Shown one piece after another: positions 39,995 through 53,300 of a stretch of 64,000 nucleotides of DNA. Numbering within the stretch: position 1 is the first letter of the stretch; each line of letters opens with the position of its first letter. The position numbers and the translations under genes are program-made. Below the pieces are notes generated by a model. It made no database searches, was not told the origin of the DNA, and saw only the letters and a list, made by a program, of their open reading frames with translations. Source of the DNA: Cyclonatronum proteinivorum (lineage in GTDB: Bacteria > Bacteroidota > Rhodothermia > Balneolales > Cyclonatronaceae); contig NZ_CP027806.1 of NCBI RefSeq assembly GCF_003353065.1, positions 1,629,353 to 1,693,352 on the forward strand, read 5' to 3'.

Positions 39995-40363
39995 CTACTG
40001 TTGCGTGTAGGGATTTTCTGAAAGGCCGCGGACAATGGTTTCAGCAAGGCGCAGCTTCACGAAGCGAATGAAAGATTTCGCTTCGGAAGCATGCGCCTTT
40101 TTTATGTTCAGGGTAAACGAAACGTCCTCGCCATCGGTAAACGGAGCCGCAAGCTCACGGCTCAGCGTATGAAGGGTCACTTTGCCCCCGGTCAGCTGCA
40201 TGTCAAGGCTGATGTACTTGATTTGCGGCAGGGGGATGTGCCAGGGCGATGGAAGGTTTTCATCCGAAAACCGAAAAACAAGGTCATCGCCGTGCAGGCT
40301 CAACGTGCCGCCCGATTCGCGGCTGATCAGCGTTTTTTTTTCGATGGAAAAGGGAATTTTCAT
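39995..40363 (-). CDS. Conserved hypothetical protein, beta-rich
   Basis: From ATG 40363 this is a 122-residue protein (MKIPFSIEKKTLISRESGG). The first part is beta-rich (TLSLHGDDLVFRF, WHIPLPQIKYISLDMQLTGGKVTLHTLS) and resembles a small PH-like or split-barrel fold. A C-terminal helix (EAKSFIRFVKLRLAETIVRGL) follows. No signal peptide or catalytic motif. It is convergent with dapD, ending 18 bp from it. An upstream in-frame ATG at 40444 would add 27 residues rich in Asn/Phe with no matching start signal. Family not recognised. Confidence 0.7.
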   Translation of the reverse strand: MKIPFSIEKKTLISRESGGTLSLHGDDLVFRFSDENLPSPWHIPLPQIKYISLDMQLTGGKVTLHTLSRELAAPFTDGEDVSFTLNIKKAHASEAKSFIRFVKLRLAETIVRGLSENPYTQQ

Positions 40364-40514
40364 GAATGTGTTTCGTAAGTCGCTGTTATTATTGCGTGAG
40401 AAAAAATAAAAAAAGTTGAGATAGTACTGTAAGGTTTCCCGCATTTAGGGCTCTATAAGGTGTGTAAGTCAGTGCTCACGTAGCAATGCTGTTTACACAC
40501 CTATTCTACAGTCC

Positions 40515-40553
40515 AAAAAAGCCGGCACCTTGAGTGGGCCGGCTTTTTTTTTT
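40515..40553. terminator. Bidirectional intrinsic terminator
   Basis: AAAAAAGCCGGC pairs with GCCGGCTTTTTT, with a short loop and T-runs on both strands. It separates the small minus-strand gene from htpG. Confidence 0.85.
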
Positions 40554-40648
40554 GCGCCTGCTAATAGCTGACGGAAAGACTGAGAAATGTGCGGCATTTT
40601 TAAAATCAGGAAAGGGGAATTGTCGGAATTGGACTGTTAAAAGGGCTT

Positions 40649-40664
40649 TGGCACTGACTTTGCT
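40649..40664 (+). promoter_or_regulatory. Sigma-54-like (-24/-12) promoter upstream of htpG
   Basis: TGGCAC, 5 bp, TTGCT matches the -24/-12 consensus TGGCAC-N5-TTGCW exactly. The expected start of transcription would be near 40675, giving a leader of about 50 nt before the htpG ATG. Sigma-54 control needs an enhancer-binding activator, which is not seen here. Confidence 0.55.
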
Positions 40665-40726
40665 TAGATGGGTGCAGGTAAAAATATAACACACATCTTC
40701 ACCCAAAGACCAACAGATACAACATT

Positions 40727-42628
40727 ATGTCAGAACAAACCCGTCAGCAGTTTGAATTTAAGGCAGAGATGAAGCAATTGCTTCACCTTATCATAAATTC
40801 GCTCTATACCAATCCGGAAGTATTCTTACGCGAGCTCATTTCCAACTCCTCTGACGCCCTGAACAAGGTGCGTTTCATGCAGCTCACCAACGAAACGGTA
40901 CAAAGTGCCGATGATCCGCTGCAGATCAAAATTACGCTCGACGAAAAAGAACAAACCTTCTCCATCGAAGACACCGGCGTCGGCATGACGGAACAAGAGC
41001 TCGTAGAACGGCTCGGTACCATTGCAAGTTCCGGCACCCTGGAGTTCATCAAGCAAATGCAGGAAAACAAGGGCAAGCTCGATGGCAATATGATCGGGCA
41101 GTTTGGCGTCGGCTTTTATTCCGCTTTCATGGTGACTGATGAAATCACCGTAGAAACCAAGCACGCCAATCCCGAAATGCCGGCCATGAAATGGGTTTCA
41201 GACGGCAAGGGTACCTTCACCATTGAAGAATCCGACAGGACGCAGCGCGGAACCAAAATTTCCTTCAAGCTGAAAGAAGAGCACAAAGAATTCGCCGAAA
41301 ACTGGCGCGTGAAAAGCATCATCAAAAAGTACTCCAACTTCGTGGACTACCCGATTGTGGTAGGGGAAGAAGAAGTCAACAAAAAAGGAGCGCTTTGGCA
41401 GAAAAGCAAAAACGACATCACCGATGAAGAGCTCAACGAGTTCTACAAATTCGTGTCCAACGATTTCAATGAGCCGCTTGATCACCTGCATCTCGCCATG
41501 GAAGGCCGGATGAACTTCAAGGCGCTGCTGTTTGTGCCCAAAAAGCGCAAGCCCAACTTCTTTCAGAACGAAGAGCTCAAATCCATTCAGCTGTACTCCA
41601 ACCGCGTATTTGTGCAGGAAGACTGCGAGCCCCTGCTGCCTGAATACCTCCGCTTCATGGAAGGCCTTGTGGACAGCGAAGACCTGCCGCTGAACGTGAG
41701 CCGCGAAGTGACGCAGTATTCGCCCATCATGAATAAAATTAAGGATGTGCTCGTGGGCAAAATCCTCGGCATGATCGAATACTGGGCGGAAAGCGAAACT
41801 GACAAATTCAAGACCTTCCTCACCGAGTTTGGTCCGCTGTTCAAAAGCGGCATCAACAGCGACTTCACCAACCGCGAGCGGCTGATCAACCTGCTCCGTT
41901 TTCAGACCACTAAATCCGGCGACGACGAGCTCGTTTCGCTCAAGCAGTATGTGGAGCATATGCCTGATTTTCAGAAGCAGATTTACTACCTCAGCGGTCA
42001 GAGCCTGAAAGAGCTTCGCAACGACCCGCGCCTCGAGTACTTCAAAAAGAAGGATGTAGAAGTGCTGCTGCTGCACGATCCTGCGGATACCTTTGTAGTG
42101 CCCGGCCTGATGAACTTCATGGAAAAAGAGTTCGCAAGCATCGAAAAATCCGACATCGACCTCGGCAAAGACGATGAATCCGCGCAGGACGCCCTCAGCG
42201 GCGAACCGCTTGACAAGCTGATTGCCGTCATCAAAGAAGCCATCGGCGACAAGGTCGAAGATGTAACCGCCTCGAAGCGTCTTGTTGAATCCGCAGCCAC
42301 ACTCACGGTCGGCAAAGAAGGCATGGACACACAGATGGAATACATGATGAAAATGATGAATCAGGAAATGCCGCCTTCCAAGCGGATTTTCGAGATCAAC
42401 CCCTCGCATCAGCTCATCAAAAACATGTCAGCCCTTACCGAAAAAGGGCAGTCCGAGCGGGTGAAACTCTTCGCCGAACAACTCTACGAAGGCGCCCTGC
42501 TCCTGCAGGGACAACTCGACTCCCCAACCGAATTCATCAACCGCATGACCCGCTTCCTCTCCCTCGCAAGTGAAGGCGAAACAGAAAGCGAAAGCGGAAA
42601 CAAAAGTGAGAATCAAAGCGAAAAATAA
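40727..42628 (+). CDS. htpG: Chaperone HtpG (Hsp90)
   Basis: This 633-residue ATP-dependent chaperone of the Hsp90 family acts in the cytosol as a homodimer on late folding intermediates. The N-terminal GHKL ATPase is complete: LRELISNSSDALNKVR (metal-binding Asn), IEDTGVGMTEQEL, GTIASSGT and GQFGVGFYSAFMV. The middle domain includes LPLNVSREVTQ (the conserved Arg that contacts the gamma phosphate) and the C-terminal dimerisation region follows to the Glu/Ser-rich tail (SEGETESESGNKSENQSEK). It is a single-gene unit with a sigma-54-like promoter upstream and a terminator downstream. Confidence 0.97.
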   Translation: MSEQTRQQFEFKAEMKQLLHLIINSLYTNPEVFLRELISNSSDALNKVRFMQLTNETVQSADDPLQIKITLDEKEQTFSIEDTGVGMTEQELVERLGTIASSGTLEFIKQMQENKGKLDGNMIGQFGVGFYSAFMVTDEITVETKHANPEMPAMKWVSDGKGTFTIEESDRTQRGTKISFKLKEEHKEFAENWRVKSIIKKYSNFVDYPIVVGEEEVNKKGALWQKSKNDITDEELNEFYKFVSNDFNEPLDHLHLAMEGRMNFKALLFVPKKRKPNFFQNEELKSIQLYSNRVFVQEDCEPLLPEYLRFMEGLVDSEDLPLNVSREVTQYSPIMNKIKDVLVGKILGMIEYWAESETDKFKTFLTEFGPLFKSGINSDFTNRERLINLLRFQTTKSGDDELVSLKQYVEHMPDFQKQIYYLSGQSLKELRNDPRLEYFKKKDVEVLLLHDPADTFVVPGLMNFMEKEFASIEKSDIDLGKDDESAQDALSGEPLDKLIAVIKEAIGDKVEDVTASKRLVESAATLTVGKEGMDTQMEYMMKMMNQEMPPSKRIFEINPSHQLIKNMSALTEKGQSERVKLFAEQLYEGALLLQGQLDSPTEFINRMTRFLSLASEGETESESGNKSENQSEK

Positions 42629-53227: not shown

Positions 53228-53300
53228 TGGGCCCAGAGGGATTTGAACCCCCGACCAATCGATTATGAGTCGACTGCTCTAACCACTGAGCTATGGGCCC
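53228..53300 (-). tRNA. tRNA-Ile2 (anticodon CAU, lysidine-type)
   Basis: A 73-nt cloverleaf on the minus strand: acceptor GGGCCCA / TGGGCCC, D-arm GCTCAGTGGTTAGAGC, anticodon stem GTCGA and TCGAT around loop CTCATAA with CAT, variable TGGTC, T-arm GGGGG TTCAAAT CCCTC. CAT could mean Met or Ile2. The anticodon arm (GACTCATAATCG) matches that of known Ile2 tRNAs such as E. coli ileX, whose C34 is modified to lysidine to read AUA. CCA is not encoded. Confidence 0.9.

Follow-up and report, generated by a model that had tools for sequence, protein, structure and literature searches.

A putative sigma-54 promoter upstream of htpG and its likely relatives at other chaperone genes of the Balneolales

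Sigma-54 and chaperone genes in described systems

Sigma-54 promoters at chaperone genes are not new in kind, and what is added here is their appearance in the Balneolales, a reciprocal pattern of CIRCE and sigma-54 elements, and a candidate activator site. The closest described case is Flavobacterium psychrophilum, where predicted sigma-54 sites (motif SM4) lie at the mapped starts of htpG, groES-groEL, dnaK, grpE-dnaJ, clpB and lon, the mutagenesis test in the accessible text being confined to the remFG-spr operon (PMC9723704). Like the genome discussed here, that of Cyclonatronum proteinivorum, F. psychrophilum shows a -24/-12 motif ahead of htpG, groES-groEL and dnaK and encodes a single sigma-54 together with three PF00158 proteins; unlike it, F. 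psychrophilum belongs to a different order and has mapped starts where our sites are predicted from sequence, and, as far as the accessible text of that paper extends, the contrast with CIRCE is new here (PMC9723704). The first-pass annotation of our locus called control of htpG by RpoN notable; such control is indeed supported, but it is less notable than supposed, since the chaperone sites of F. psychrophilum were already published, at least as predictions in the accessible part of the paper (PMC9723704). More broadly, a comparative study of the sigma-54 regulon reports an enrichment of chaperone genes among the predicted targets in Bacteroidota and Planctomycetota, and of the HSP90 group in Bacteroidia, and the Balneolales sites resemble this regulon in that respect; in its accessible portion, the main text does not name Balneolales, and neither an HrcA/CIRCE exchange nor activator sites are treated (PMC12316311). 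In Chlamydia a tandem promoter likewise brings a chaperone operon within reach of sigma-54, but there, according to the accessible text, HrcA is kept, unlike in our genome, and rpoN falls on heat shock (PMC8762339).

Our literature search, which was partial in coverage, found no paper that joins sigma-54, HrcA and Bacteroidota, and none that brings rpoN and an enhancer-binding protein together with dnaK and a heat-shock regulon; with such coverage, this does not make the exchange described below an unpublished one. In Escherichia coli, ibpB has both a sigma-32 and a sigma-54 promoter; the hsp20 gene of our genome is similarly a small heat-shock gene with a putative sigma-54 promoter.

The probable promoter element of htpG

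The window, by which we mean the whole stretch of 64,000 nucleotides of C. proteinivorum DNA that was analysed, carries TGGCACTGACTTTGCT at 40649-40664 on the plus strand, with a T just before it and 62 nt between its end and the htpG ATG at 40727 (Table 1). The GG and GC of its two boxes are ten bases apart. The consensus for sigma-54 promoters is TGGCACG-N4-TTGCW, so that the TGGCAC-N5-TTGCT first picked out as an exact match is truly present before htpG and agrees with this longer form at 11 of 12 specified positions, the mismatch being T for G at position 7.

Table 1. Features in and around the htpG promoter region (window coordinates)
Feature	Position	Strand	Basis
Sigma-54 -24/-12 element TTGGCAC-TGAC-TTTGCT (putative)	40648..40664	+	sequence; kept in 5/5 same-genus genomes with an htpG start
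-24 box TGGCAC	40649..40654	+	sequence
-12 box TTGCT	40660..40664	+	sequence
Predicted transcription start	40675	+	inference: C of the -12 GC counted as -12; 52-nt leader
htpG (Hsp90), 633 aa	40727..42628	+	ORF; PF00183, E 5.1e-120
G+C-rich hairpin then T run, terminator-like, upstream edge of promoter region	40515..40553	+	sequence and fold

With the hairpin as its upstream edge, the promoter region of htpG is about 170 nt long; a terminator scan did not have this hairpin among its calls. The same ground may hold a small structured RNA (40428-40553, plus strand), lying between the upstream gene and htpG: 117 nt at 40440-40556 fold at -49.8 kcal/mol (z -6.7), and the ends, TGTAAGG and TACAGTCC plus hairpin plus T run, are common to our genome (G000), G005, G004 and G008. 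No Rfam family reaches its cut-off at 40428-40553, and a Thr_leader candidate near 40455-40552 was rejected because it scores 31.4 bits where the cut-off is 55. In the whole window a single Rfam match passes its cut-off, a tRNA at 53228-53300 on the minus strand.

It would be tempting to argue from the number of such sites, and this we have dropped as proof of sigma-54 promoters, because the observed numbers are about those of reversed controls. With at most one mismatch, TGGCAC-N5-TTGCW is found once in the 64-kb window (the htpG site) against 3.18 expected; genome-wide, the exact pattern occurs 4 times and its reversed control 3 times, and TTGGCAYNNNNTTTGCT with one mismatch gives 14 against 13; over 59 related genomes the exact pattern gives 28 against 25 and, within the genus, 9 against 2. 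This parity, in our genome and the 59 relatives, is what speaks for a chance match, with a housekeeping promoter of the ordinary sigma-A type driving htpG, a reading that we nonetheless consider very improbable, given that the element is kept in all five congeners while its flanks have diverged. Nor did an ordinary promoter for htpG survive scrutiny as a candidate: no sigma-70-type site was found at 40360-40760, TAnnTTTG is absent from the plus strand of 40445-40726, and among the five congeners only G001 has a copy of it up to 250 nt from htpG, a single one that lies within the sigma-54-like element.

It is place and conservation, then, that favour a sigma-54 promoter. When the 282 nt upstream of htpG were shuffled with dinucleotides preserved, the exact TGGCAC-N5-TTGCW appeared in 15 of 20,000 shuffles. 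Every one of the five same-genus htpG upstream regions contains TTGGCAYNNNNTTTGCT, with its first base 79 to 123 nt ahead of the ATG, and matches TTGGCAYNNNNTTTGCW at 13/13 specified positions; when the five are aligned, 14 of the 19 invariant columns fall inside the 17-nt element, and the alignment is lost in the flanking DNA. In the same family, G008 has TTGGCATAGTTTTTGAA upstream of htpG (12/13). Beyond this the record is less favourable, and we count against the sigma-54 reading that none of the 16 htpG upstream regions examined from the family we label f3 (15 plus G034) has the element, in a family where rpoN does occur. These figures derive from 22 upstream regions, htpG having been matched in 25 of the 59 related genomes (G006, G051 and G053 had no start and were left out; G002 had no htpG match); the gene is present in families f1 and f3 and was matched in 0 of 23 genomes of f4. 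By eye, several f3 htpG genes (at L025 and at others such as L021, L034 and L035) come after a very short hydrophobic ORF (MSQYKQVLIL-like), in a neighbourhood that differs from that of the window.

RpoN, its activators and further sites

Sigma-54 requires an AAA+ activator. The genome has a single, complete rpoN, with activator-interacting, core-binding and DNA-binding domains, its absence having been named at the outset as a finding that would tell against RpoN control, and it also has the enhancer-binding activators that such control implies: three proteins match PF00158 at more than 220 bits, as strong sigma-54 activators do, each combining an AAA+ core and lid with a Fis-type HTH. Receiver domains are present in two of them and missing from the one that sits between miaB-like and lptE-like genes (neighbours named by eye). 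Four further PF00158 matches, at 22-32 bits, were taken for other AAA proteins. Among relatives rpoN was matched in 55 of 59, and the four without a match (G008, G025, G047, G049) are 60-87% complete. As a first guess at the activator of htpG we would name the miaB-linked protein without receiver domain, at about an even chance. Its orthologue is found in 50 of the 59 genomes, among them every one of the 31 that make up the genus, G006, G009 and f4, and was unmatched in nine (G007 and eight f3 genomes, from assemblies 51-94% complete); since it is the only one of the three activators profiled, this distribution does not single it out.

The genome holds four exact matches, each 56-78 nt from the gene that it precedes: htpG; hsp20, which has dnaK behind it; an HslV-like gene with an AAA gene next in line; and a zinc-ribbon gene. 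The last three of these products have the Pfam labels Proteasome, AAA and Zn_ribbon_8; we take the Proteasome and AAA pair to be HslV/HslU and the Zn_ribbon_8 gene to be FmdB. Upstream of groES-groEL there is a site with one mismatch. A search for the same motif at groES and dnaK had been proposed at the outset, and similar elements do precede groES and hsp20-dnaK, here as well as in relatives. In the relatives, with genes named by eye, the exact pattern stands also before hsp20-dnaK and before an hsp20-like gene (G025), as well as before the zinc-ribbon and ABC-transporter genes described below, the remaining exact matches being within genes or before unrelated genes. We rejected clpB as a target: the nearby site points away from the gene, and its upstream sequence has no good site by eye, which we count against the sigma-54 reading.

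Two side observations belong here. A sigma-54-like site precedes the FmdB-like zinc-ribbon gene not only in G000 but also in G001, at about 300 nt, and in G055, at 70 nt, the latter being a genome of another family (the loci are L057, L092 and L074). In addition, in five f4 genomes (L069, L071, L072, L073 and L076) an exact sigma-54-like site precedes an ABC-transporter gene, in the gap between it and divergent slipin/NfeD-like genes (genes named by eye).

Taking together conservation, rpoN, the activators and the sites at other chaperone genes, the reading of the htpG motif as a sigma-54 promoter is well supported, and on sequence grounds it is very probably a genuine one, among several at chaperone genes in this order. 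We think that a protein-quality regulon dependent on RpoN has htpG among its targets, the start, signal and activator of htpG being those that we infer. It is highly likely, in our judgement, that the -24/-12 element drives htpG through RpoN and a stress-responding AAA+ activator shared with other chaperone and protease genes. RNA polymerase with RpoN would wait at the element as a closed complex, which an AAA+ enhancer-binding activator answering protein-folding stress would open with ATP, and htpG would be transcribed from this promoter; the same RpoN would also serve hsp20-dnaK, groES-groEL and probably the hslV-hslU-like pair and the zinc-ribbon gene.

Probable control of groES and hsp20-dnaK across the order

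In the Balneolales, the sigma-54 element alternates with HrcA/CIRCE. HrcA is matched in 24 of the 59 genomes and groES in 51, of which 50 were examined (G054 left out), with CIRCE scored upstream of groES and dnaK. All 19 groES-bearing genomes with an HrcA match have CIRCE at groES and, at the threshold used, 0/19 have the sigma-54 element; among the 31 without an HrcA match, 26 combine presence of the element with absence of CIRCE, three have CIRCE and two have neither, and these 19/19 and 26/31 are non-independent counts from related genomes. The three with CIRCE (G040, G042 and G047) are 67-80% complete, so HrcA may have been missed; the two with neither are G009, which has TTGGCACGGTATTTGTC, and G022. 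Our own genome gave no hrcA match in a PF01628 search, and its best CIRCE score at groES is 10/18, against 15-18 in CIRCE-scored genomes. The f4 groES regions have TTGGTAYRGNNNTTGCW in 22/22 examined; within the genus, TTGGCACGGTTTTTTCT is found in 4/4 (G001 and G005 having no groES match), and we count against the sigma-54 reading that it has TTTTCT and hence no -12 GC. Repeated TGACA-like words were also seen before the genus groES.

A DnaK tree of 29 of the 30 genomes (G003 left out, its translated piece falling under the length filter) is weakly supported at its deepest forks and asks for two changes of the HrcA label, one of them being G008. Two exchanges of groES control are not supported, that second change being in a genome where groES was not found, and the sequences suggest at least one exchange between HrcA/CIRCE and the sigma-54 element. 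A wider set of 80 public groES loci, including Balneolales, which are also its closest loci, gave 79 with enough upstream DNA (L268 left out). Of these, 55 lack CIRCE and 24 have it; YTGGYAY-N6-TGNW, at 9/10 or better, is present in 48 of the former (null mean 4.4) and in 6 of the latter (null mean 1.4), many of the wider matches having a relaxed -12 box.

At dnaK, TTGGCAY-N5-TTG precedes the gene in 28 of 30 upstream regions among the matches listed, 20 of the 30 with TTGC; in G012 and G018 no hsp20 intervenes, and the site stands 89 and 133 nt before dnaK, respectively. These boxes bear on whether the conserved block might be merely sigma-54-like, being the operator of another chaperone regulator or an ECF-type sigma promoter. 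The non-canonical -12 boxes lend themselves to this (TTTTCT at the genus groES; TTGA, TTGT and TTGG at several dnaK loci), as do the relaxed forms in wider groES loci, yet two boxes at standard sigma-54 spacing, TTGC in 22/22 f4 groES examined and in 20/30 dnaK loci listed, and the same motif type at mapped starts in F. psychrophilum (in the accessible text of PMC9723704) make this reading very improbable.

Within 80 nt upstream, 27 of 29 dnaK regions listed (G051 left out, its region being too short) have the palindrome TGNC-N5-GNCA (null mean 0.43, maximum 3), counts that are not independent, several f4 regions being near-copies. From its start to the element it is 34-36 nt in 23 of the 30 regions listed, and we regard it as a possible activator site for hsp20-dnaK. 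HrcA-bearing genomes have it as well, which suggests that the hsp20-dnaK promoter may predate the exchange at groES. Among the groES regions of the wider set 12/38 have the palindrome (null mean 0.91, maximum 5), but it is found in 0/22 f4 groES, 0/5 groES from G009 and the genus taken together and 0/5 same-genus htpG regions, and we rejected the idea of one activator palindrome for all targets. We recognised no activator site in the five htpG upstream regions, and this too is counted against the sigma-54 reading.

What the signal might be is a separate matter. A sigma-54 promoter could answer to envelope, osmotic or host/environment stress, with chaperones following, and the miaB-linked activator does adjoin an lptE-like gene; we hold this unlikely, if far from negligible, because the genes found are mainly cytoplasmic chaperones and a protease and because the element stands in place of CIRCE at groES. 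It shares its promoter claim with the RpoN-driven htpG that we prefer, and the two likelihoods are not to be added. Our boldest reading, to which we would give somewhat less than an even chance, is that in the Balneolales HrcA/CIRCE repression and sigma-54 activation of groES are mutually exclusive and were exchanged at least once, and that sigma-54 here serves a genuine heat-shock response under the command of its own enhancer-binding protein, which lacks a receiver domain and reads TGNC-N5-GNCA at hsp20-dnaK: an AAA+-based switch in place of sigma-32 or a repressor.

If this is true, htpG, groES and hsp20-dnaK of the Balneolales would form one activator-dependent regulon, to which the HrcA-bearing sister lineages would offer a natural contrast, and heat sensing in this order would be directly testable, with its promoters, a candidate activator site and a few candidate activators now named.
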